DNA of 64,000 bases, taken from assembly GCF_036711975.1 (NCBI RefSeq), contig NC_091971.1, positions 17,367,501 through 17,431,500 of the forward strand. The letters run 5' to 3'. Below are positions 5,160-22,900 of the stretch, piece after piece; position 1 is the first letter of the stretch; each line of letters opens with the position of its first letter. The DNA comes from Onthophagus taurus. Taxonomy: Eukaryota > Arthropoda > Insecta > Coleoptera > Scarabaeidae. The position numbers and the translations under genes are program-made. The notes below the pieces were generated by a model. It was not told the origin of the DNA, did not search any database, and saw only the letters and a program-made list of their open reading frames with translations.

Positions 5160-7090
5160 CAAAGGTTTAATATAACAAGAGAACCTCTCAACCGATTTTA
5201 ATGATCAATATCTCATTCGAAAGCTTAATCCTTGGCCAATATGTAAGTAGAAATGCCCGATTCTAAATCTCTTTTGAATTCCGCAAAAACGCCAACATAT
5301 TACGAAAGTACACGAAAATAACACAAAAATTACCTTTTTAGGTAATCATAACTCGTAGATGATGTACTTGATTATTAAAATCAATATCTCATTAGATTCG
5401 CCATAGTTTCTTCTATCAAAATTATAAAATGCCTGATCTCATTTTTTTCCTGTTAACCTTGTACAGCTTTCAGAATGACACCGTGTTCGGCTTACAATAA
5501 GAAAATATTAATTTAGTTAACCTAAGCACAAGATATGGAACATTCTAGAAAAAAGTTTTATTGTAAAAGTTGTAGTAAACTTTATTCTTAACAATATTGC
5601 TCTTTTACACTTTTGCTCTCAGATGCATAAGTATCGAGCAAAATTCGAATAGGCGAAAAGTAGATGAAATCGTGGTTTTACATTTTCTTGTTGGTAGAGC
5701 ACGGGATTGGGAACGTTTTAAAAAAAAAGTTTTTGTATGAAAGTTGTAGGAAACTTTATTCTTAACAATATTGCTCTTTTACACTTTTACTCTCAGATGC
5801 AGAAATATCGAAACAAAATCGAATAGATGAAAATTAGATAAAATCGTGGTTTTACATTTTGTTGTTGGTAGAGCACGGGATTGGGAACGTTTTAGAAAAA
5901 AAGTTTTGGTATAAAAGTTGTAGCAAATTTTATTCTTAACAATATTGCTCTTTTACATTTTTACTCTTAGACGCATCAATATTAAGAAAAATTCGAATAT
6001 GTGAAAATTAGATAAAATCGAGGTTTACATTTTGTTGTTACTAGAGCAAGTGATTTGAAACATTTTAGAAAAAAAGTTTTAGTATAAAAGATATAGCCAA
6101 CTTTATTCTAAACAATATTGCTCTCTTACACTTTTACTCTCAGATGCATAAATATCGAGCAAAATTCGAATAGGTGGAAATTATATAAAATCGTGATTTT
6201 ACATTTTATGGTTGGTAGAGCACGGGATTGGGAACGTTTTAGAAAAAAAGTTTTGGTATAAAAGTTGTAGCAAATTTTATTCTAAAGAATATTGCTGTTT
6301 TACAGTTTTGCTCTCAAATGCATAAATATCGAGCAAAATTCGAATAGGTGGAAATTATATAAAATCGTGATTTTACATCTTATGGTTGGTAGAGCACGGG
6401 ATTGGGAACGTTTTAAAAAAAAGTTTTTGTATGAAAGTTGTAGGAAACTTTATTCTTAACAATATTGCTATTTTAAACTTTTGCTCTCAGATGCAGAAAT
6501 ATCGAAAAAAAATCGAATAGGTGAAAATTAGATAAAATCGTGGTTTTACATTGTGTTGTTGGTAGAGCACGGGTTTGGGAACGTTTTAGAAAAAATGTTT
6601 TGGTATAAAAGTTGTAGCAAATTTTATTCTAAACAATATTGCTGTTTTACACATTTGCTCTCAGATGCAGAAATATCGAGCAAAATTCGAATAGGCGAAA
6701 AGTAGATGAAATCGTGTTTTTTTTTACATTTTGTTGTTGGTAGAGCACGGGATTGGGAACGTTTTAGAAAAAAAGTTTGGGTATAAAAGTTGTAGCAAAT
6801 TTTATTCTTAACAATATTGCTCTTTTACATTTTTACTCTTAGACGCATCAATATTAAGAAAAATTCGAATATGTGAAAATTAGATGAAATCGAGGTTTTA
6901 CATTTTGTTGTTACTAGAGCAAGTGATTTGAAACATTTTAGAAAAAAAGTTTTAGTATAAAAGATATAACCAATTTTATTCTTAACAACATTGCCCTTTT
7001 ACAATTTTGCTCTCAGATGCATAAATATCGAGCAAAATTCGATTACAAAAATTGTAGGCTACCTTCGTATGGGGTTTGATTTTATTCTTT
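5160..7090. mobile_element. satellite-bearing element, copy 1 (~9 units of ~174 bp)
   Basis: From about 5530 the DNA is a head-to-tail array of roughly nine diverged ~174-bp units. Each unit contains ACAATATTGCTCTTTTAC, CTCTCAGATGCAT, a GAAAATTAGAT tract and TAGAGCACGGGATTGGGAACG. The preceding 5160-5480 segment (ATATCTCATTCGAAAGCTTAATCCTTGGCC) reappears, in both orientations, at the two ends of the larger copy in Ddc intron 3. This shows that arm plus array is a dispersed unit. The right end (GGCTACCTTCGTATGGGG) also matches the right end of that copy. No transposase is present. Confidence 0.8.
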
Positions 7091-7838: not shown

Positions 7839-7842
7839 ATTC
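7839..7842. repeat. target site duplication (left)
   Basis: ATTC directly abuts the outer TGT of the left LTR. The same ATTC follows the outer end of the right LTR at 16604-16607. A 4-bp duplication is normal for Ty3/gypsy elements and marks the whole interval as one integration. Confidence 0.85.
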
Positions 7843-8630
7843 TGTCACAAACTAGCTCTCGAGAACTGCTCGTTTCCCGTAGTGGGTTTCCTAGCTAGGT
7901 CCACGGAGCGGCTCGCGTACCCAACTGTCCACGCACTACCGTTTTCTTGATAGCTAGCAATGACTGAGTTAGGGTTTGGCACACTGCATTCGTTCACTTG
8001 AAAGCGAACGGCAGTAATTTGAAATTAAGAATAAAAATAGATTGAAAGAAAACGAAATTTCACTGCTAAAGAATAAGTTTGCTTTATTTTTGAAAAAGAA
8101 CGTATTATATTATATAAAAAAAAAACAACTGACAAAGATTTTAAAAAGTAAAAATTACATGACATAAGCTATTCAACAACATCATTACGAAATTTGCCGA
8201 GGTGGTTAGCAGGTTCAATGAGAAATCGGAAGTTTAAGATTTTAATAACGCTTACCCGTTTGTTAAAGTAAAATATTCATCGAAGAAAGAGAATCCAATT
8301 CAACGAATTTTATAACTAAATTGCTATACGTTCAAATCGCACGTTTCGACTTTAAAAACACAACAAAAACTTTAATTTCCCGGTTTCGCCCGATGCTTTT
8401 CTATTCCAATCCCGTAACCGACTCCCCGATTTTTTCTTCATTTCTTCCCTGCTCCATCTACTCTAACTGCCACCTCGGCACATTCCTGCCAGAACCGCCT
8501 ACGTAGTATTTAGTCTGGACCCTCGGTTCTCAAGACGCAACTTCGTAATTAAATTACAAAGTTCTGCCTGTATTGCGTTTTATTATTTTTTTTTTAATCG
8601 CTTTCGAATCCCAAAATGCGGTTTGTTACA
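7843..8630 (-). repeat. 3' LTR of the provirus
   Basis: 788 bp. In element orientation it begins TGTAACAAACCGCATT and ends CTAGTTTGTGACA. It holds a TATATAATATAATA box and, about 20-30 bp further on, an AATAAA signal, placing a short R region in its last third. The adjacent polypurine tract shows that this copy is the 3' LTR. Confidence 0.9.
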
Positions 8631-9103: not shown

Positions 9104-9891
9104 TGTAACAAACCGCATTTTGGGATTCGAAAGCGATTAAAAAAAAAATAATAAAACGCAATACAGGCAGAACTTTGTAATTTAATTACGAAGTTGCGTC
9201 TTGAGAACCGAGGGTCCAGACTAAATACTACGTAGGCGGTTCTGGCAGGAATGTGCCGAGGTGGCAGTTAGAGTAGATGGAGCAGGGAAGAAATGAAGAA
9301 AAAATCGGGGAGTCGGTTACGGGATTGGAATAGAAAAGCATCGGGCGAAACCGGGAAATTAAAGTTTTTGTTGTGTTTTTAAAGTCGAAACGTGCGATTT
9401 GAACGTATAGCAATTTAGTTATAAAATTCGTTGAATTGGATTCTCTTTCTTCGATGAATATTTTACTTTAACAAACGGGTAAGCGTTATTAAAATCTTAA
9501 ACTTCCGATTTCTCATTGAACCTGCTAACCACCTCGGCAAATTTCGTAATGATGTTGTTGAATAGCTTATGTCATGTAATTTTTACTTTTTAAAATCTTT
9601 GTCAGTTGTTTTTTTTTTATATAATATAATACGTTCTTTTTCAAAAATAAAGCAAACTTATTCTTTAGCAGTGAAATTTCGTTTTCTTTCAATCTATTTT
9701 TATTCTTAATTTCAAATTACTGCCGTTCGCTTTCAAGTGAACGAATGCAGTGTGCCAAACCCTAACTCAGTCATTGCTAGCTATCAAGAAAACGGTAGTG
9801 CGTGGACAGTTGGGTACGCGAGCCGCTCCGTGGACCTAGCTAGGAAACCCACTACGGGAAACGAGCAGTTCTCGAGAGCTAGTTTGTGACA
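9104..9891 (+). repeat. inverted internal LTR copy
   Basis: The same 788-bp LTR in the opposite direction to the outer pair. It is followed by AACT, the first four bases found after the true 5' LTR. It was therefore copied from a molecule that continued from U5 into the primer-binding leader, and then joins eEF2 sequence. Confidence 0.9.
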
Positions 9892-10515
9892 AACTCTTTT
9901 GCAGGGAGTACGCCATTGTTGGCGTTTGTGTTTTAACCCAAGAAAGAAAATCTAAAATCATCCAATATGGTGAACTTCACGGTAGACGAAATCCGTACCA
10001 TGATGGACAAAAAGAAGAATATCCGTAACATGTCCGTCATCGCGCACGTGGACCACGGAAAATCGACTCTTACAGACTCCCTCGTATCCAAAGCTGGTAT
10101 CATTGCCGGTGCCAAAGCTGGAGAGACTCGATTTACCGATACTAGGAAAGATGAACAGGAACGGTGTATTACCATCAAGTCAACTGCCATATCCATGTTC
10201 TTTGAGCTTGAAGACAAGGATTTAGTCTTCATCACAAACCCCGACCAACGCGAAAAAGAAGAAAAAGGTTTCTTAATCAATTTAATTGATTCTCCTGGGC
10301 ACGTAGATTTCTCCTCTGAAGTCACCGCCGCTCTTCGGGTAACTGATGGAGCTCTTGTGGTTGTGGATTGCGTTTCAGGTGTGTGTGTACAAACTGAAAC
10401 TGTACTTCGTCAAGCTATCGCTGAACGTATCAAGCCTATTTTGTTCATGAACAAGATGGACCGTGCTCTTCTTGAACTCCAATTGGATTCTGAAGAATTG
10501 TTCCAAACTTTCCTA
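9892..10515 (+). pseudogene. eEF2: captured 5' end of eEF2 mRNA (retro-copied fragment)
   Basis: The 5' leader and first ~183 codons of translation elongation factor 2 (full length about 844). The start codon is at 9967 ([20 protein letters not shown]). The GTP-binding P-loop AHVDHGKS and the [12 protein letters not shown] and [12 protein letters not shown] motifs are intact. There is no intron and the frame is unbroken, as expected of a cDNA. The sequence starts CTCTTTT, the pyrimidine tract at the cap site of eEF2 and other TOP mRNAs, so the copy seems to reach the 5' end of the message. It stops within EELFQTF and runs into antisense pol, so any translation product would be a truncated GTPase with a meaningless tail. 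It is not the functional eEF2 gene. Confidence 0.9.
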
Positions 10516-13500
10516 CGTAAAAATCTCTGTGCTTACTTCTTTTATTATAATACTCAGCCTGTCTTCGAGCGGCAAACTGCAAACTTTCAAAAACCGTCTC
10601 ATACACGTGGTTCATTCGCGCTGCCAATTCCGTCACATAGTTCTCATCACAGTCGTACTTACACCTGGAGGGTCGGAGAAAAACATCCACTGGTAATTCC
10701 ATTTCCCTGCCGTATAACAAAAAGTGGGGGGTATAGCCCGTACTGCTATGCACCGTTGATCTGTACGCCAGAAGAACATAGGGTAGCCATTCATCCCAGG
10801 TTCTTTGGTCCTTTTTAACATAGTGAGATAGTACGTCCTTGATCACCCGATGACTTCTCTCGATAAGACCATTGCACTCGGGATGATACGGTGTGGTTTG
10901 TATTTTGTCGATATTTAATAGCTTACAAATTTCCTTCATGAGTGACGACACAAAATTTGTACCCTGATCGGTGAGCAACTGCAGAGGAGTACCGTGGCGA
11001 CTTACTATTTGCGTTACAAAAGCTCGAGCCACAGTATCAGCCTTCTGATCAGGTAAGGCTACTGCCTCTAAATATTTGGTGAAATAGTCCTGGAACGTAA
11101 GTATATACTTGTTTCCTTTGTATGTTGTTGGTAACGGACCCACTATGTCCATTGAACTTCTTTCGAATGGCTTTCGAACAGTTGTAAATTTTTGCAAGGG
11201 TGCTCTAGACATATGGGGGGAAGTTTTACGTCTATTGCATGACTCACAATTCGAACAATACTTTTTAACATCACGTGTCATAGACGGCCAAAATACCCTA
11301 TCCTTAAGTAAAGCTAATGTTTTCGCTTGACCGCCATGACCTGCAAATGGTAAATCGTGGTAATCATGCAAAGCCTTCTGCACAAATGATTTCGGCAACA
11401 CTAGTACTTCTTTTCCTAACTCATCAGTTTTAAATAAGAGCTTATCATTATCTATGAAATAACTATCCCTAAGATCTTTGTTTGATGAAAGCGAATCCCG
11501 TATTTCAATGCAAAACTCGTCCTTATCTTGTTCTTTCAAAATAACATTTTTATCCCAAACTGGCGTTGCTATATTTTCCTGTATTTTACATAGTGTTTTA
11601 TTTTTAACGAAAGGTAATTTATATACCATTATCATGGTATTCGTTCCCTCAAAACATTCTCTTAATTCTTCTTTAACTAGGCTCCACTTTAGTTTATCGA
11701 GACCACATCCTATTCTGGGTATTGCCAAATATCTCTCCCCAGATTTATTCATTTCCTCCCGTAACGTTTCTAGACACTGTCTCAACATGTGGTACGTTGG
11801 TTTATGGTAGTATTCGTCCTTTGAAATTAAATGGTATATTTTTCGTTTCTCCGCTATTTGCGGTACTATGTCACCAACTCCTTTCTCCTCGGATCTTAAT
11901 TTTTCAACGGAGCCAAATCGCTTTTTAAATTCCTTTGCAATACCAGCTCCCATCGCAAAATCCGCCGAAACGCAATGAGCTAATACCCAACCTTGGGGAG
12001 CATCAAACAAATTTCCCTCTACTTCATTAATGCATAACTTATCTTTCTCATCCTTTCGGATTAGGGAAACTATACTGTTTCGGCTGAGAGCATCCACGTT
12101 TCCATGCTTTCGGCCCGGTCTGTGGATAATCTCGAAGTCATACTCCATTAGCATTAAAGCCCATCGTGCTAGTCTCGAGCTCGGGTCTTTGATATTCATC
12201 AACCATTTCAATGGTCTGTGGTCTGTTATGATAGTGAAACGGCGTCCATATAAGTAGCACCGAAATTGCTTTATCCCAAATATGACAGCAAGACACTCTT
12301 TTTCGGTAGTCGAATAGTTTAGCTCAGCCTTCTTTAGTCCTCTACTAGCGAAAGCCACAGGGCGTTCATTTCCCTCTCTCACCTGGCTAAGTATAGCACC
12401 TAATCCTGTGTTACTCGCGTCTGTAGCCAAGATGAAAGGCTCATTGAAATCTGGGAAAATTAATACCGATTCTGATGTTATCGCGGCCTTTAAGCTTTCC
12501 ACCGCTTCCAATTGCTCTTTTTCGAATTTAAACGCGACATCTTTGCGCGTTAACTTCGTAATTGGGGCCGCTAATCGGGTAAAGTCCGGTATAAATTTCC
12601 TATACCATCCCACCAGCCCTAAAAATTCTCTACAATTCCTAACGTTTTTTGGAACGGGGAAATTCTGTATCGAGTTGATTTTTCCCGGATCCGGTTGAAC
12701 GCCTTGGGCAGATATTATGTGACCAAGATAAGACACCTTTGGGACCGCGATCTGGCTTTTCTCCATCTTAAGTTTTAGTCCTGCATCTCGGATTCTATCA
12801 AAAATAGTTTGTAGTTTGTTCAAATGATCGTCGACACCCGTTCCATTGAAAATTATTATATCATCTAAATAGACGAGGCAATGAGTACCTAACAATCCCG
12901 AAAATGTAAAATTCATGAAGCGCTGAAACGTCGCGGGGGCATTTACTAGCCCAAACATCATTCGGTTGCTCTCATAGTGCCCGAACGGCGTGGAGAAAGC
13001 TGTTTTTTCTCGGTCATTCTTCTCCACTTCTATTTGATGGTACGCCGACGCTACATCAAACACGCTAAACAGATTAGTCTTCCCTAACACATCTACTGTC
13101 TCTTGCAGATTCGGCAACGGGTACACATCTTTCTTAGTTACCGCGTTGAGTCCTCGGTAATCTATACATACTCGGGGTTTTATCGATCCGTCTGACATCT
13201 GCCGGTTAACGATTACAACCGGCGCCGACCAGGGTGAATGAGATGGTTTAATAATATTTTTCTTTAACAGCTTATCTATTTCTTCCTGTAAGAACTCTCG
13301 TTGATGAACTGGTACTCTATATGGACGTTTACTAATTGGTGGTACATTCTCAGTAATAATTTGATGTTTGACCTTGTGAGTTTTCGTAAACCTTTCGTCA
13401 CCATTGTCGAAAATATCTCGATAATCCAATAACAATTTTTCAACTTTCTCTTTGTCTGTTTCTGATAGATGAGCCAATGAGATCGATTCCAAAAATGTTG

Positions 13501-14500
13501 ATGTCTCTCCGTTTTCTCTTATCATTGCAACCATCTCGCTTTTTACTTCTGGATTAACCTTCTTATTCGGTATTATACAACTATACGCTCTAGCTATCTC
13601 TGTATGCTTTGGGATCGTTATTGATTCTTCTCCTATGTTTGCAACCAATACTCGTGGTTTTTCCCCTCTTGGAACAGCACATCTTCCTATTAATATATTT
13701 GGATGAAAGGGCGTTTTACTTGATTCAATTACAATGTCGTTCTTTTTATTATTATTACGCACGTCAACCGCTAACACCTTCTCTGTAAACGGTTCAACGA
13801 TATCTTCTTCAACGGTGATAACAGGATTACATTGACAGTTTTTATCATTGTTTATTTCCGTTGATAATTCTGATACATAATCATTCGCGAGTTCCAAATT
13901 ATCTACCTGACCTACACCCAAACCTGATGTGGTGGATTCTCTACATTCAAGGGAATCTGTAGACACAATACGCTGCGACCCCAAATTGACGTTCATGATA
14001 CTTGAAAATCTAACATCAATACCTCCTACATTTAGGCTACCTTTACTAAAATCAATAATTACATTGTGAAATTCCATAAAATCGCGTCCCAATACTCCAT
14101 CTGTGGTTAAAGGCAAATTGTCCAAACATACATAGCACGAGAAATCTCCTAAATTCGATTCATTCCCCAATGAAAAATTTAACTCAGTCGTACCTAGCAT
14201 GTCAATTCCGTGTCCCGTTATTCCCGAAATACTAAAATCTCCTGACATAGGTTTAATTGCTTCCGAAATTACACAAGAATGTTTAATTATCGTAACAGGA
14301 GAACCGGTGTCTACTAACATCGTTATTGGTTTGTTTTTATTGAACAATTTAATAGAAAAAGGTGTTTCAAAAATGAGTCTCATATGCGGTATAATCTTAT
14401 TTACAGTTGGGTCATAATTTTCGACAGACTTTATTGACCTATCGTAACCCTTTAATTCGAGTCTCCTGCGGTTCGGGTATTCACCGCAGGACGATATGCG
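10445..14500 (-). CDS. pol: gypsy Pol polyprotein with embedded macro domain
   Basis: Residues are numbered from the Met at 14383. Aspartic protease: LVDTGS (D25) and LGRD (98-101). Reverse transcriptase: about 365-540, YLDD at 505-508. RNase H: TDAS at 654-657, ending HGNVDALSR at 768. A TARG1-like macro domain occupies about 785-925. Integrase has an HHCC zinc site (H1006/H1009/H1016, C1046/C1049) and a D1079, D1139, E1175 core with 35 residues between the last two. About residue 1291 the gypsy sequence gives way to antisense eEF2, so the integrase C-terminal domain is lost and the last ~20 residues are foreign. The frame is open upstream of the Met into the end of gag, so Pol is probably made by -1 frameshifting at 14500-14506. 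No other inactivating change is seen. Confidence 0.93.
11609..12031 (-). other. macro domain (TARG1/OARD1-like) segment within Pol
   Basis: About 140 residues between RNase H and integrase match the OARD1/TARG1 ADP-ribosyl-acceptor hydrolase family: [41 protein letters not shown] and the signature [12 protein letters not shown]. Human TARG1 uses a lysine (K84) and an aspartate (D125). Both positions are kept here (LISK, Pol K855; CGLD, Pol D896). The aspartate of the common 'GDLF' motif, which contacts adenine in macro domains, is Asn. Length and motif order equal a whole domain, so it is a complete insertion. Likely function (inference): removing ADP-ribose from host or element proteins. Confidence 0.9.
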
Positions 14501-14506
14501 TTTAAA
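14447..14506 (-). promoter_or_regulatory. gag-pol -1 ribosomal frameshift signal
   Basis: In gag frame the heptamer T TTA AAC (14500-14506) has the X XXY YYZ form. After a 9-nt spacer a perfect 8-bp stem follows: CCTGCGGT (14483-14490) pairing with ACCGCAGG (14465-14472) around a 10-nt loop. The loop's ACCC can pair with GGGT at 14447-14450, allowing an H-type pseudoknot. Slipping back one base puts ribosomes into the frame that stays open into protease. The gag stop lies just downstream at 14452-14454. Confidence 0.85.
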
Positions 14507-15567
14507 GAGTTCGTCTCATTGTACCTGTTATTTGCGGGAATTTGCGGTGATCTAGTAACCTGCGGGGGCGATTGTCGGCCCGTATAATTGTTATCGTTTA
14601 CATTACGTCGCGGTTCGTTTTGATAATCTCGCTGTTGGTAATAAAAATTTCTTCGGTCGCGGTTGTTTACCTTATCGGATGAATGACCCTCTTGAAAACT
14701 AACACGGCGTGGGAGGTCACGCCTTTGGTCGTAGTTCGGTTGCATTTTATTTGAAGGTAACCTACATTGTTTACTAATATGACCGGGTTTTCCGCAATTA
14801 TAACAATTAAACACGGTTGTCTGTGCATTACAAAATTTCGCAAAATGACCTGACTTTCCGCATCTGTAACATAATCTAGTAGTCGTATCCACCGCTCCTA
14901 TATTAATTCGATTTGGACGATTTCGGTTTGTAGCCTGATTTAATTCTTCAAATGATGCGATCTCTTCCGCTTTATCTAGAGTTAAATCCGTTTCACGCAT
15001 AAGTAACGTTCCTACCATTTGACTTAATTCACGTTTCATTCCCACTTTAAATTGACTTAGTGCTAATTCATTAATTTTTATAATAACTCCCGGTAATTCT
15101 GCTGCTGTTACTTTCGCTTTGTCCTCCTCGATAATCTCATTCGCGATAGACTTTATACTGGTTACGTAAGACGACACGGATTCATCGTGTTTTTGGAACG
15201 CGCGCATTAATTTCCCTAGTGCTTCTCCCGGTAATTTTCGCGGGGTAAACTTTTTAATTAATTTTTCCCGTAATTCTACATATGTGACCTGATTACTCTG
15301 TAAGTTTGTTTCCGCCTTATAAAATTTATAAGCCTCTCCACTCAATCGATACCTAACAATATGAAGCATTTGTGTTTCATTCCAATTATCTAAGATCGCA
15401 CGTTGCTCTAACCTTTCAAAATACAGTTTAACATTTTCTCGACCTGAAAAAGATTCTACCGTTCCTGCTAACATTCCTAAAGAAATCGGTGTAACCATCA
15501 TTGGTGTTGTTAGAATAGAACCTTCAGCTTCGCCCGGAATTTCTGCTACGTTATCATCGGCGTTCAT
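14452..15567 (-). CDS. gag: gypsy Gag polyprotein
   Basis: A 371-residue capsid/nucleocapsid precursor. Residues about 35-210 resemble the retrotransposon Gag capsid fold (GRENVKLYFERLEQRA, then YRLSGEAYKFYK and a QFKVGMKREL segment). Two CCHC zinc knuckles for RNA binding follow: C233/C236/H241/C246 and C255/C258/H263/C268. The tail is rich in Arg, Asn and Gln. No break is present. The start codon is the first ATG after the LTR leader, and the stop overlaps the pol frame. Confidence 0.92.
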   Translation of the reverse strand: MNADDNVAEIPGEAEGSILTTPMMVTPISLGMLAGTVESFSGRENVKLYFERLEQRAILDNWNETQMLHIVRYRLSGEAYKFYKAETNLQSNQVTYVELREKLIKKFTPRKLPGEALGKLMRAFQKHDESVSSYVTSIKSIANEIIEEDKAKVTAAELPGVIIKINELALSQFKVGMKRELSQMVGTLLMRETDLTLDKAEEIASFEELNQATNRNRPNRINIGAVDTTTRLCYRCGKSGHFAKFCNAQTTVFNCYNCGKPGHISKQCRLPSNKMQPNYDQRRDLPRRVSFQEGHSSDKVNNRDRRNFYYQQRDYQNEPRRNVNDNNYTGRQSPPQVTRSPQIPANNRYNETNSLNAYRPAVNTRTAGDSN

Positions 15568-15795
15568 AGTGATTAAGATTTTTATTATTTTTAATGATAG
15601 TCACAAAATATTCACCTACTAACCCCTGCACGACAAAATTTATTACTTTATACGTACAAACAAAAGAATGATTGACAAAACATTAAAGAAAATTAACTCG
15701 AAATCTTTAAATTTTGAAACAGGAAATAGTAACAAAAACAAAATAAAAAAATAACAATTAGATTTTATTTCTACTTTTACATCAAATTGTGCCAA
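15568..15795 (-). other. provirus 5' leader
   Basis: About 230 bp between the primer-binding site and the gag start; A-rich in element sense, with no open frame. It would carry packaging signals, none of which I can identify. Confidence 0.5.
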
Positions 15796-15815: not shown

Positions 15816-16603
15816 TGTCACAAACTAGCTCTCGAGAACTGCTCGTTTCCCGTAGTGGGTTTCCTAGCTAGGTCCACGGAGCGGCTCGCGTACCCAACTG
15901 TCCACGCACTACCGTTTTCTTGATAGCTAGCAATGACTGAGTTAGGGTTTGGCACACTGCATTCGTTCACTTGAAAGCGAACGGCAGTAATTTGAAATTA
16001 AGAATAAAAATAGATTGAAAGAAAACGAAATTTCACTGCTAAAGAATAAGTTTGCTTTATTTTTGAAAAAGAACGTATTATATTATATAAAAAAAAAACA
16101 ACTGACAAAGATTTTAAAAAGTAAAAATTACATGACATAAGCTATTCAACAACATCATTACGAAATTTGCCGAGGTGGTTAGCAGGTTCAATGAGAAATC
16201 GGAAGTTTAAGATTTTAATAACGCTTACCCGTTTGTTAAAGTAAAATATTCATCGAAGAAAGAGAATCCAATTCAACGAATTTTATAACTAAATTGCTAT
16301 ACGTTCAAATCGCACGTTTCGACTTTAAAAACACAACAAAAACTTTAATTTCCCGGTTTCGCCCGATGCTTTTCTATTCCAATCCCGTAACCGACTCCCC
16401 GATTTTTTCTTCATTTCTTCCCTGCTCCATCTACTCTAACTGCCACCTCGGCACATTCCTGCCAGAACCGCCTACGTAGTATTTAGTCTGGACCCTCGGT
16501 TCTCAAGACGCAACTTCGTAATTAAATTACAAAGTTCTGCCTGTATTGCGTTTTATTATTTTTTTTTTAATCGCTTTCGAATCCCAAAATGCGGTTTGTT
16601 ACA
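15816..16603 (-). repeat. 5' LTR of the provirus
   Basis: 788 bp, offset from the left LTR by exactly 7,973 bp throughout, so without indels. An identical 61-codon antisense frame appears in all three LTR copies and reflects only their identity. It should drive transcription leftwards, away from Ddc, while its outer edge faces the Ddc 5' region. Confidence 0.92.
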
Positions 16604-16959
16604 ATTCTTACGATTTTCTTTTCGGATTTTAGTATGAATGATCGATACGAAAATCCCCACTCTTGCTACCGGTTGAGATTTAAGCGAGACTTCGACCTTC
16701 CAGAGCTGATAATTCTCACAACGTTCGCAGATAAAACGTATCTCCCGCGAATTTTAAACCATTTTAAATTAAACTAATAAGTGAAACTTTAAGATTTTAC
16801 AGCCATTTAACGTTACCTTGAAAAAATCATTATCAGTTTTTAGTAATAATTATTAAGTGATACTTAAAAATAATTTAAGAGGTGGGTTAAGTTAATTTGA
16901 AGGAAAGTGTGAAAGAAATTAATTAATACAAAAAGAATTTACTAGTTTATTAACACACC
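16604..16959 (+). promoter_or_regulatory. Ddc 5' flank left between provirus and gene
   Basis: Begins with the right ATTC duplication. It must contain part of the Ddc 5' UTR and possibly the core promoter, since only 356 bp remain between the LTR and the proposed start codon. I found no clear TATA box. A transcription start upstream of the provirus cannot be excluded. Confidence 0.45.
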
Positions 16960-19900
16960 ATGGAAGGCGGTTAGTTATTCTAAAATTATTTTTGGGTCCT
17001 TTTTGTTGTGAATTGATTGTCTTTGTTCGCTTATTTAAGGATTTTTTTTAAGTTTTGCGTGCTTCTGTTATTTTGTTGACATTTGTGTGTTAATTTTTGT
17101 TTATTATAATAATACATTACTTAAAAAAATTTATCTTTGTAGAAATGGATTCAGCAGGATTTACCGAATTTGGAAAAGCTATGATTGATTATGTTACCAA
17201 ATATTTGGAGAACATAAGAGATAGGTATGTAGTGTAATTAAAGAAAATATGATTTTAAAGAGTTTACCTCATTGTTTTAAAAGAAATTAGTGTAATTTTA
17301 AACGGGTTTTCCCATAATTGAAATTCCTAATTGTTCAAGAACCAAAGCTAATTAAAGTTAATGTTTCGTTTTCGTTAACATTGAATGATACATCGTTACA
17401 CCGGTAATATCATATGTTTATCAAAATCCTTTTCAATGAAAAGTTGGTGTGCTATGTAATAGTATAATAATAATATTTCCTCGATTTAAAATAACATATA
17501 TCTTGAAGATGATTTATAATTAAATCGAAATTGGTAGAACCGAAAATAAAACAAATCCATCAGAAAAGTGCAAAGAATCTAATTTTATTTAATATATTAC
17601 TTGATTTCAACGATAAGAACCTAAAAAAAAATTTACTTTCACTTTTTTACCTATTTAAACAATCTCTAACAACAATATCCATATTTCAATAACCCCGGAT
17701 TGTATTTCGTTCAATTAATAATCTTGTCAATCTCGCAATCGTTCATAATCGTGTCAAGGCCCCTTATTAAGAGATTAAACATTCTCTATCACAGATACAA
17801 TATCATATTATTATAGCTATTATAAATAAAATTCTGTTACAATTTTAAACTGTTTTCAGATCCGCGTTTTAATTTATTTTGATTTATGCCTATGATATAT
17901 TTGTTTTAAATTGATATTTAATAATTAAAAAAAAACAATGAGTTCACTATTAATTTGTGATTAGAGAATGTGTTAACCGTAAAAACAGAATGTTATAGGT
18001 CACACATTCTCGTGCGACAAACGCAATGTGTCCAAGAAGTAAAAGTTGTCAGTCTGCATCGATATAGAAACAAACCTTGACCTAATCGGTTATGATTTTT
18101 CGTTCTTAGGCGTGTTTTACCAACCGTTGAACCGGGATATTTGAGACCTTTGTTGCCCGATTCCGCACCATTAAAACCAGACCGTTGGGAAGAAGTTTTG
18201 GAAGATGTTGAGAAAGTTATTATGCCAGGAGTAAGTAAACGTAAAAATAATTCTCTCGATTTTATTTTGTATCTTATAATTCTAATCAATTCAACATTGA
18301 ATGTTATTTTAATCTTTGATACTAGAACAAAAAAACATATAATCTTAATTGGTTTTAAATTATTCAGTTTTAAACTTCAAAAATGAATACATTATAAAAT
18401 TTAAAATTAAGATGTAAAACTTGCATATAATCAACACTTTTTTTTGACATTGAATAAATTATTAGTTAACGTTGTTTATTAAATTACAAATGAGACCCCA
18501 ATTAGATAGGGTACAACGTGTACAGTATTTTGATGATAACAAGAGATCCTCTTAACCGATTTTGATGAACAATATCTCATTTGAAAGCTTAATTCTTGGC
18601 CAATACGAAACAATTCAAATATCATTTGAATTTTGGTAAAACTCCCAAATGTTAGGAAAGTACACAAAATTAAACTTTCTTAAATGGGGTCAAAATCTAT
18701 ACCCCATTTGTTTCGCCATAGCTTCTTCTATTGAAATTACAGAATGCTCGATCTCAATTCTTTCCCGTTAACCTTGTACAGTACTCAGAACGACACCATG
18801 TTCGGCTTGTTGTTTATGTTGTTTATGGACGACCAAAATTCTAGCCCCCAATAAGAAAAAAATAATTTAAGTGTTTTGATTAACACAAGAAACTAACTAA
18901 TCAAACACATCACATCAATTATCCTCTTTATTAATTGGCCTATCTTAATTATCAAGATCTCGATTGAAAGTATGGTCCACAAAGAGCACGAAAGTAGAAA
19001 TGCCCGATTTCAAAACCACGATTTCATCTAATTTTCACCTATTCGAATTTTTCTCGGTATTTATGCATCTGAGAGCAAAAGTGTAAAAGAGCAATATTGT
19101 TAAGAATAAAGTTTGCTACACCTTTTATACCATAACTTTATTTCTAATATGTTTCGAATCCCATGATCTACTAGCAACAAGATGCAAAACCACGATTTCA
19201 TCTAATTTTCACCTTTTCGAACATTTCTCGATATTTCTGCATTTGAGAGCAAAAGTGGAAAAGAGTAATATTGTTAACAACAAAATTTGCCACAACTTTT
19301 ATACTAAAACTTTTCTTCTAAAACGTTCCGAATCCCGTGCTCTAGGTACAAACAACAAAATGTAAAACTACGATTTCATCTAATTGTCACCTATTCGAAT
19401 ATTTCTCGATATTTATGTATCTGAGAGCAAGAATGTAAAAGAGCGATATTGTTAAGAATAAAGTTTGCTACAACTTTTATACCAAAACTGATGAAATGAT
19501 ATGTTAAAAATGTTTATTTCTAACATATTCCGAATACCATGCTCTACCAGCAACAAGATGTAAAACCACAATTTCATCTAATTGTCACCTTTTCGAATTT
19601 TTCTCCATATTTATGCATCTTAGAGCAAAAGTGTAAAAGAGCAATATTGTTAAGAATAAAGTTTGCTACACCTTTTATACCATAACTTTATTTCTAATAT
19701 GTTTCGAATCCCATGATCTACTAACAACAAGATGCAAAACCACGATTTCATCTAATTTTCACCTTTTTCAACATTTCTCTATATTTCTGCATCTGACAGC
19801 AAAAGTATAAAAGAGCAATATTGTTAATAATAAAATTTGCCACAACTTATATACTAAAACTTTTTTTCTAATACGTTCCGAATCCCATGATCTACCAGCA

Positions 19901-22900
19901 ACAAGATGCAAAACCACGATTTCATCTAATTTTCATCTTTTCGAACATTTCTCGATATTTCTGCATCTGAGAGCAAAAGTGTAAAAGAGCGATATTGTTA
20001 AGAATAAGGTTTGCTACAACTTTTATACCAAAACTTTATTTCTAACATATTCCGAATACCATGCTCTACCAGCAACAAGATGTAAAACCACAATTTCATC
20101 TAATTTTCACCTTTTCGAATTTTTCTCCATATTTATGCATCTTAGAGCAAAAGTGTAAAAGAGCAATATTGTTAAGAATAAAGTTTGCTACACCTTTTAT
20201 ACCATAACTTTATTTCTAATATGTTTCGATTCCCATGATCTACTAACAACAAGATGCAAAACCACTATTGCATCTAATTTTCACCTTTTTGAACATTTCT
20301 CTATATTTCTGCATCCGAGAGCAAAAGTATAAAAGAGTAATATTGTTAACAATAAAATTTGCCACAACTTATATACTCAAACTTTTTTCCTAAAACGTTC
20401 CGAAGCCCGTGCTCTACAAACAACAAAATGTAAAACCACGATTTCATCTAAATTTCACCTATTCGAACTTTTCCCGCTATTGATGCACCTGAGAGCAAAA
20501 GTGTAAAAGAGCAATATTGTTAACAATAAAATTTGCCATAACTTATATACTAAAACTTTTTTTCTAATACGTTCCGAATCCCATGATCTACCAGCAACAA
20601 GATGCAAAACCACGATTTCATCTAATTTTCACTTTCTCGAATTTTTCTCGATAATCATGCATCTGAGAACAAAAGTGTAAAAGAGCAATATTGTTAAGAA
20701 TAAAATTTGCTACAACTTTTATACCAAAACTTTATTTCTAACATGTTCCGAATACCATGCTCTACCAGCAACAAGATGCAAAACCACGATGTCATCTAAT
20801 TTTCACCTTTTCGAATTTTTCTCGATATTTATGCATCTGAGAGCAAAAATGTAAAAGAGCAATATCGTTAAGAATATAGTTTGCTAGAACTTTTATACCA
20901 AAACTTTATTTCTAACATATTCCGACCACCATGATCTACCAGCAACAAGATGCAAAACCACGATTTCATCTAATTTTCACCTTTTCGAATTTTTCTCCAT
21001 ATTTATGCATCTTAGAGCAAAAGTGTAAAAGAGCAATATTGTTAAGAATAAAGTTTGCTACACCTTTTATACCATAACTTTATTTCTAATATGTTTCGAT
21101 TCCCATGATCTACTAACAACAAGATGCAAAACCACGATTTCATCTAATTTTCACCTTTATGAACATTTCTCTATATTTCTGCATCTGAGAGCAAAAATAT
21201 AAAAGAGTAATATTGTTAACAATAAAATTTGCCACAACTTATATACTAAAACTTTTTTCCTAAAACGTTCCGAAGCCCGTGCTCTACAAACAACAAAATG
21301 TAAAACCACGATTTCATCTAAATTTCACCTATTCGAACTTTTCCCGCTATTGATGCATCTGAGAGCAAAAGTGTAAAAGAGCAATATTGTTAACAATAAA
21401 ATTTGTCACAACTTATATACTAAAACTTTTTTTCTAAAACGTTCCGAATTCCGTGCTCTACAAACAACAAAATGTAAAACCACGATTTCATCTAATTTTC
21501 ACCTTTTCGAATTTTTCTCCATATTTATGCATCTGAGAGCAAAAGTGTAAAAGAGCAATATTGTTAAGAATAAAATGTGCTACAACTTTTATTCCAAAAC
21601 TTTATTTCTAACATGTTCCGAATACCATGCTCTACCAGCAACAAGATGCAAAACCACGATTTCATCTAATTTTCATCTTTTCGAATTTTTCTCGACCCTT
21701 TACCCTTTATACATTGTTCTCTAACACTCTTGCTCTCAGATGCATCAATGTAGAGAATTTTTCCAAAATATGAAAATTAGAAGAATTCGTAGTTTCACAA
21801 TTTGGTTAATGGAAAAAACAGTATTCTGAGCATGATACTGAAAAACTTTTAGAACAAAAGTTGTAGCAAATTTTACTCTTTATACATTGTTCTCTAACAC
21901 TTTTACTCTCAGATGCATCAATGTACAGAATTTTTCTAAAATATGAAAATTAGAAGAATTCGTAGTTTCACAATTTGGTTAATGGAAAAAAGAACAGTCG
22001 AATTTTCGAATTTTTCTCGATATTTATGCATCTGAGAGCAAAAATGTAAAAGAGCAATATCGTTAAGAATATAGTTTGCTACAAGTTTTATACCTAGACT
22101 TTATTTCTAACATATTCCGACCACCATGATCTACCAGCAACAAGATGCAAAATCACGATTTCATCTAATTTTCACCTTTTCGAACTTTTCTCGCTATTTA
22201 TACATCTCACTGCAAAAGTGTAAAGGACCAATATTGTTAAAAATAAAGTTTGCAACAAGTTTATTGGGTATAGACAATCGAGTATATCGTTTACTAGTTA
22301 TAGACCACCTAAAACAGGGCCATTATGTGTTGTTTTTGTGTACTTTGGCAATATTTTGGTGTTTTAGCGGAATTCGAGACAAATTTCAAGTCAGGCATTT
22401 CCATTTTCGAATTGGCTAAGGATTAAGCTTTTGAATGAGATATTGTTCATCAAAATCGATTGAGATGTTCTCCTGTTATAATCAAAATACTATACATGTA
22501 AAATCTTATCTAATTGGGAGTTAGAAAAATTGGGGGCTAACTTCGTATAGGTGCAAAGCTGATGTTTACAGCTATTGCGAGTAGCCATTTTACCATTTTC
22601 TTCAGTTTTACTAATAGTAATACTATGGTATTATGACCGGTAAAAGGCTATCTTACAACGCTTTAACGCAAAAACTCAACGATTGCTGATACCCAATATC
22701 TTCTACAGCGCCGAGGAGTTCCTTCAAATATCGACATCATGACAATCTATATTTGATTACATAGCTTATTCTACATTCTACATCGGACTTGTTTCGTCTT
22801 TTTACTTTGTATATCACTTTCATCCGTAAAAATATTATTATTAACTTTACCTCCAACCTTATAAGGCATAGTTAAGTAATCGGTTCAAATTAAATCAATT

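Follow-up and report, generated by a model that had tools for sequence, protein, structure and literature searches.

The human macro-domain protein TARG1 (also OARD1 or C6orf130) takes ADP-ribose off glutamate and aspartate residues and off the end phosphates of nucleic acids (PMC7050489), removes it from thymidine in single-stranded DNA (ssDNA) (PMC8501950) and, at telomeres, strips exposed ssDNA of the ADP-ribose that PARP1 makes (PMC11102865). Among retroelements, open reading frames (ORFs) with macro domains were described in Epsilon-like retroviral sequences of ray-finned fish (Basta et al. 2009, cited in PMC4977317). The endogenous retroviruses of zebrafish are thus also retroelements with a macro domain, but there it lies in additional ORFs and not in a Ty3/gypsy Pol, a comparison drawn from the citing description, in which the macro class is unstated (PMC4977317); the accessible part of a survey of zebrafish retroviruses contains no mention of macro domains (PMC8672886). 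Long terminal repeat (LTR) elements can carry accessory domains (chromodomain, DnaQ-like exonuclease, RNA-virus helicase), each an optional enzyme or reader in the polyprotein, but none of those named in the accessible part of that text is an ADP-ribosylhydrolase (PMC6338049). Human TARG1 and the OARD1-like proteins of insects are stand-alone or lie in larger host proteins, whereas the domain described here is part of a retrotransposon Pol. It was found in a 64,000-nucleotide stretch of the genome of the scarab beetle Onthophagus taurus (RefSeq assembly GCF_036711975.1, contig NC_091971.1, forward strand positions 17,367,501 to 17,431,500; hereafter the window), which contains a Ty3/gypsy-type LTR retrotransposon with a TARG1-type domain in frame between RNase H and integrase. 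In open PMC text, which largely leaves subscription papers outside its coverage, we found no report of an ADP-ribosylhydrolase or macro domain inside a Ty3/gypsy Pol; the optional accessory domain is already known in LTR elements as a kind, and this enzyme class seems to be unreported there, the macro-domain ORFs of the ray-finned fish retroviruses being the nearest precedent.

The Pol frame of the element (1356 amino acids from stop to stop) occupies positions 10445..14515 of the minus strand, on which all Pol features lie, and its final codons, below about 10525, are foreign eEF2 sequence. A domain scan placed the aspartyl protease (RVP) at 14072..14338, the reverse transcriptase (RT; RVT_1) at 12713..13180, RNase H (RT_RNaseH) at 12140..12451, the integrase zinc finger (H2C2) at 11219..11395 and the integrase core (rve) at 10880..11173, giving the order protease-RT-RNase H-integrase of Ty3/gypsy Pols. 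The TARG1/OARD1-type macro domain lies in frame at 11615..12034 (Pol frame residues 828-967). It matched human TARG1 over the full length, with the same fold and length and 45% identity, and TARG1 was the nearest macro fold. An earlier note, made from the letters of this DNA alone, had claimed a TARG1-like macro domain inside a gypsy Pol, placed it between RNase H and integrase and named counterparts of the TARG1 residues K84 and D125; the in-frame match, the domain coordinates and the alignment bear it out on all three points.

In alignment register, K72 of the 147-residue piece analysed (codon 11819..11821, minus strand) is equivalent to the human catalytic lysine K84 and D113 (codon 11696..11698, minus strand) to human D125, and both positions were invariant across 57 aligned rows. 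In a wider comparison the lysine was present in 21 and the aspartate in 18 of 22 Pol macro domains, and both were found in all 59 other rows, which include the host stretch L030 and the protein P0036 (with a Pfam RVT_1 match). At N8 (codon 12011..12013, minus strand) human TARG1 has Asp at residue 20, which we take to be the adenine-contacting aspartate; the asparagine of the window domain departs from TARG1 here, and this position was not treated as defining. The note had regarded this replacement as noteworthy, a view weakened by its frequency: 6 of the 22 Pol macro domains have asparagine at this position, as do 11 of the 59 other rows, so we rejected it as a special change. Net charge, considered as a hint of nucleic-acid binding, did not differ significantly (median +5.5 in the 22 Pol domains against +3 in the 59 others, p 0.09). 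Assignment to the DarG antitoxins was not supported either, the window domain scoring 50.1 bits against a curated DarG cut-off of 250; DarG pairs with the toxin DarT, and a scan of five Gag and Pol pieces of the element detected no ADP-ribosyltransferase domain.

We consider it rather probable, and the most economical interpretation, that the Pol-borne domain erases host ADP-ribose from the nucleic acid or the proteins of the element; human TARG1 catalyses such reactions. It would be produced as part of Pol and would remain associated with RT and integrase, either in the particle or in the pre-integration complex. Reverse transcription yields ssDNA and free DNA ends. Host enzymes may ADP-ribosylate the ends of the element's cDNA or RNA, its single-stranded cDNA, or acidic residues in silencing proteins or in proteins of the element itself, and an ADP-ribosylated template or end could block synthesis, end processing or integration. 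By stripping these marks the domain would keep cDNA, RNA or element proteins clear. If active, it raises the testable question of whether ADP-ribosylation of cDNA, RNA or Pol restricts insect retroelements.

The domain is not peculiar to the copy in the window. The host genome examined (290.8 Mb, 33 contigs) contained 73 matches to it, 22 of them full length at 98-100% identity; sixteen of these lay in a 1692-residue frame without a listed stop, and one further frame of this length had a stop listed inside the macro match. When 140 of 1853 RT candidates were scored, at least 23 copies had RT at 99% identity or more, 22 of the 23 with the whole macro domain and one with its first 56 residues only. 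Intact family copies lacking the segment, which the earlier note had named as the mark of a one-off host capture, were thus looked for, and the copies listed indicate a lineage trait; a single one-off capture was rejected on these copies together with the several families and species that have the domain. The near-identical copies, and LTRs that are 100% identical over 788 bp in the window (5' LTR, 15816..16603; terminal LTR in the same orientation, 7843..8630; both minus strand), make the window copy and its family look young.

We fetched 38 further stretches of the host genome, and the macro domain followed RNase H and/or preceded integrase in 29 of them, lay upstream of RT in six, and was at neither site or unclear in three (L030, L031 and L036). 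The families with the domain between RNase H and integrase had macro identities of 66%, about 50%, about 43% and 39%; in another family (45%) it was placed before RT. Diverged forms with 18-27% identity also occurred at the RNase H-integrase site, and in one of them, L025, glycine replaces the catalytic lysine and the glycine loops are lost, with aspartate still at the 125 position; L025 matched PDB TARG1 at E 3.8e-7. The stretch L031 is the host OARD1 gene; a short intron interrupts its domain, and neither RT nor integrase was matched nearby. In a first macro tree it grouped with cellular proteins, the named ones all from beetles (support 96/87); in a second tree the same grouping (93/53) was not well supported and had the Pol row P0018 inside it. 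Because L031 falls with these cellular proteins and not with the window domain, we rejected host OARD1 as a near source; on these groupings the domain of the element did not arise by recent copying of that gene. The stretch L030 (G000:C11:7706372-7706764) is a macro match with two stops, and the 3.4 kb fetched there contained no match to RT or integrase; in the first tree L030 adjoined the C-terminal Pol macro P0011.

Related Pols of other genomes were surveyed as the best 120 of 6086 matched Pols, ranked by RT/RNase H similarity. A TARG1-only profile matched 18 of these 120 at E<0.01, nine weakly and nine at E<1e-20 (P0165, P0166, P0169, P0171, P0174, P0196, P0246, P0265 and P0277), and no match was obtained with 126 reversed sequences. 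P0246 is from Leptinotarsa decemlineata, and P0013 and P0009, from a separate earlier search, are from Athalia rosae. A TARG1-type macro domain in Pol is thus shared by other families and species. It is easily missed, since only P0174 among the nine strongly matching Pols carries a Pfam Macro label in the database. The RNase H-integrase linker was mostly shorter than 70 residues without a macro domain, and 138 to 445 residues long with an intact or diverged one. In P0009, P0013 and P0265 an intact domain has a second, diverged one behind it. The cellular protein P0010 of Tribolium likewise has, by eye, one intact macro domain and then diverged repeats, which may mean that the tandem was captured as a whole. 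In P0036, a predicted protein of Planococcus citri with RVT_1 that was not labelled gypsy-type here, a TARG1-like macro domain lies C-terminally; this may be a second retroelement class that has acquired the domain, or the gene model may be a fusion.

The linkers of many other Pols appeared to be a diverged TARG1 fold, for example in P0255 of the butterfly Pararge aegeria. Three groups of such linkers matched TARG1 in hhalign at E 2e-7, 6e-13 and 6e-7, and all eight controls (five shuffles, one reversal and two other Pol domains) gave E 0.11 or worse. Profiles of the diverged domains were built partly from rows that were later matched, and such matches are circular; independent support comes from hhalign, from the TARG1-only profile and from the match of L025 to PDB TARG1. 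The lysine was kept in 19 of 23 diverged rows and the aspartate in 12 (glutamate in 5), the loss being mainly that of the glycine loops, and we dropped the label 'decayed and catalytically dead' for these linkers. They bear on a different explanation, in which the fold is a structural spacer or interaction module for the processing of Pol or the assembly of integrase, any catalysis being incidental. A TARG1-related, strongly diverged domain without glycine loops does fill the linker in a large lineage (hhalign), as this explanation would have it, but the window's family and most of its relatives have an intact active site despite saturated synonymous change between families, and the position of the domain varies among lineages; we regard the explanation as unlikely. 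The linkers of ant-type Pols were unsupported as diverged macro domains (hhalign E 0.44). These Pols (P0228, P0241, P0244 of Monomorium pharaonis, P0251, P0267 and P0269) have a conserved linker of about 180-216 residues between RNase H and integrase in which no relation to macro domains was detected.

A tree of RT and RNase H was built from 129 rows by a quick method, with 44 of its 126 inner branches unresolved. The domain was labelled TARG1-type at E<1e-20 for database rows and by hand for five rows of the host genome, and the rows labelled as having none include proteins too short to reveal the linker. By this labelling, 19 of the 129 rows had a TARG1-type domain: between RNase H and integrase in 11, at the C-terminal end in five (P0011 with P0014, P0018, and P0174 with P0196) and before RT in three (P0001, P0171 and the 45% family). 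The window family fell in an 11-row clade (support of 99 in the Shimodaira-Hasegawa-like approximate likelihood ratio test, SH-aLRT) in which eight rows have the domain at the RNase H-integrase site; P0166, one of these eight, is without lysine and aspartate, and L024 has asparagine for aspartate. The rest of the clade comprises P0161 and P0162 without a macro domain and P0164, whose long linker has no profile match and reads like a diverged macro domain. A separate 37-row lineage (support 100) held 16 diverged rows together with the TARG1-type rows P0265, P0277 (without the catalytic aspartate) and P0013.

All macro states on this tree need 17 changes, and the scatter of the three Pol positions over its branches speaks for repeated capture or transfer of the domain. 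The macro tree, from which 13 long-branch or outlying rows of 81 were dropped (five being Pol rows), is less decisive. In the approximately unbiased (AU) test it did not formally reject a single origin of all Pol macro domains, the 17 Pol rows in one clade giving p-AU 0.069; the 12 RNase H-integrase rows as one clade gave 0.040 and the window's eight-row lineage 0.27. A single origin within the eight-row lineage stands on this tree. The domain of the 45% family, which lies before RT, grouped with those of L022 and P0265 (95/89), which hints at transfer between elements.

These positions bear also on whether the domain is a reader and not an eraser, binding ADP-ribose without needing turnover and tethering the integrase complex to poly-ADP-ribosylated (PARylated) chromatin or DNA breaks. 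In other gypsy elements, chromodomains probably anchor the integrase to histone marks in this way. The domain adjoins integrase in the 11 RNase H-integrase rows and follows it in the five C-terminal ones, diverged versions remain beside integrase, and the ALC1-like macrodomains include readers (PMC7050489). On the other side, three rows have the domain before RT, far from integrase, and most Pol macro domains keep the catalytic lysine and aspartate, which binding alone would not need. The glycine loops are expected to hold the ADP-ribose ligand, but it was the lysine that diverged versions retained more often. We find a pure reader improbable.

Between families, synonymous change in the macro domain was saturated (proportion of synonymous differences, pS, 0.78-0.97; nonsynonymous, pN, 0.20-0.37), and the only deep pair with a finite synonymous rate, L010 and L012, gave a dN/dS of 0.17 at dS 1.8; the domain is clearly constrained, as these substitution patterns indicate purifying selection. 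Variants within the family (22 copies; three synonymous, four nonsynonymous, one stop) were too few to test selection alone, as were those of the pair L019/L018 (two synonymous and two nonsynonymous in the macro domain, two and eight in RT). A piece of host transcript caught by template switching and carried as a functionless passenger is thus very hard to credit: although the window copy itself has an mRNA-derived host piece (eEF2) joined to the element, 22 of the 23 listed copies have the whole domain in frame, as do several families in which it is under purifying selection, and it is not near host OARD1 in the macro trees.

The proposed eraser is favoured by the full-length match to TARG1 with both catalytic residues, by the purifying selection, by the retention of lysine and aspartate in most Pol macro domains, by the occurrence of the domain at three positions of Pol and by the viral fold matches described below. 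Some background is favourable too. RNA ADP-ribosylation has been suggested as a possible mark of transposon or viral RNAs (PMC7050489), and ADP-ribosylation can silence retroelements: in mammals modification of KAP1 by SIRT6 leads to LINE1 silencing (PMC4695847). In Drosophila parp-1 mutants, five of the eight significantly changed mobile elements were up; ten others, of which nine are gypsy-type, rose without reaching the significance cut-offs (PMC7712786). Several observations weigh against it. The other three significant elements were down in the same mutants, and according to the authors the effect may be indirect (PMC7712786). The aspartate is missing in four of the 22 Pol macro domains (P0166, P0171, P0277 and L024), one of which lacks the lysine too. 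In the diverged rows the glycine loops are gone (glycine at residue 31 in 0 of 23 and at residue 111 in 1 of 23), and because of this loss catalysis may be dispensable in those lineages. Two close relatives of P0165, P0161 and P0162, gave no macro match, and their linkers are 44 and 58 residues long; in P0161 the DALSR motif is followed after 22 residues by PVWDR, which in P0165 comes after the macro domain, so that P0161 looks like an empty site. Finally, the macro domain evolves fastest in the comparison of fam1 with fam50 (dN 0.50, against 0.25 for RT, 0.17 for RNase H, 0.30 for the zinc finger region and 0.21 for the integrase core); fast change is often seen in host-facing proteins. The intact, moved, lost and diverged versions form a natural comparison series.

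The model of the domain also found fold matches in BFVD among macro domains of arthropod-associated viruses (28-38% identity), among them VP8 of Kadipiro virus (38%) and proteins of thrips-associated flavi-like, negev-like and virga-like viruses (28-36%); these are RNA viruses with a different protein context, and the likeness seen is one of fold. We put forward tentatively, as a possibility we doubt somewhat more than we believe, that an unrecognised innate defence of insects puts ADP-ribose on nucleic acid that is foreign or reverse-transcribed, or on proteins of the elements, that TARG1-type hydrolases were captured repeatedly, both by retrotransposons and by RNA viruses of arthropods, to erase this mark, and that the diverged linker folds of other gypsy lineages are remnants of earlier rounds of the conflict. 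A protein of Cressdnaviricota was a further BFVD fold match to the domain model.

The copy in the window is chimeric. Between 7839 and 16607 the order is LTR, gag and pol cut in integrase, followed by a piece of eEF2 in antisense, an LTR in inverted orientation, two 3' ends that form a palindrome, and the terminal LTR. The Gag frame with its CCHC zinc knuckles (14452..15600, minus strand) matched zf-CCHC at E 2.5e-10 and Retrotrans_gag at E 3.4e-4, under the cut-off of the latter. As in other Ty3/gypsy elements, the 788-bp LTRs go with a short target repeat, here the 4-bp GAAT at 7839-7842 and 16604-16607 (read by eye); because it flanks the whole chimera, this seems to have integrated as one unit. 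The inverted LTR copy lies at 9104..9891 on the plus strand. The spliced 5' cDNA piece of eEF2 that is joined to the cut end of Pol (9894..10520, plus strand, right border approximate) matches a contig C7 gene at four separate places, its exons, and begins near a CTCTTTT site, presumably 5'-TOP-like; on these matches its source was a spliced mRNA. The chimera probably arose by a switch of template in the course of reverse transcription, and the palindrome might instead reflect a misassembly. Tandem repeat arrays of about 174 bp, probably satellite DNA, lie in opposite orientation on either side of the element, at 5520-7045 and 19011-22265 of the window.
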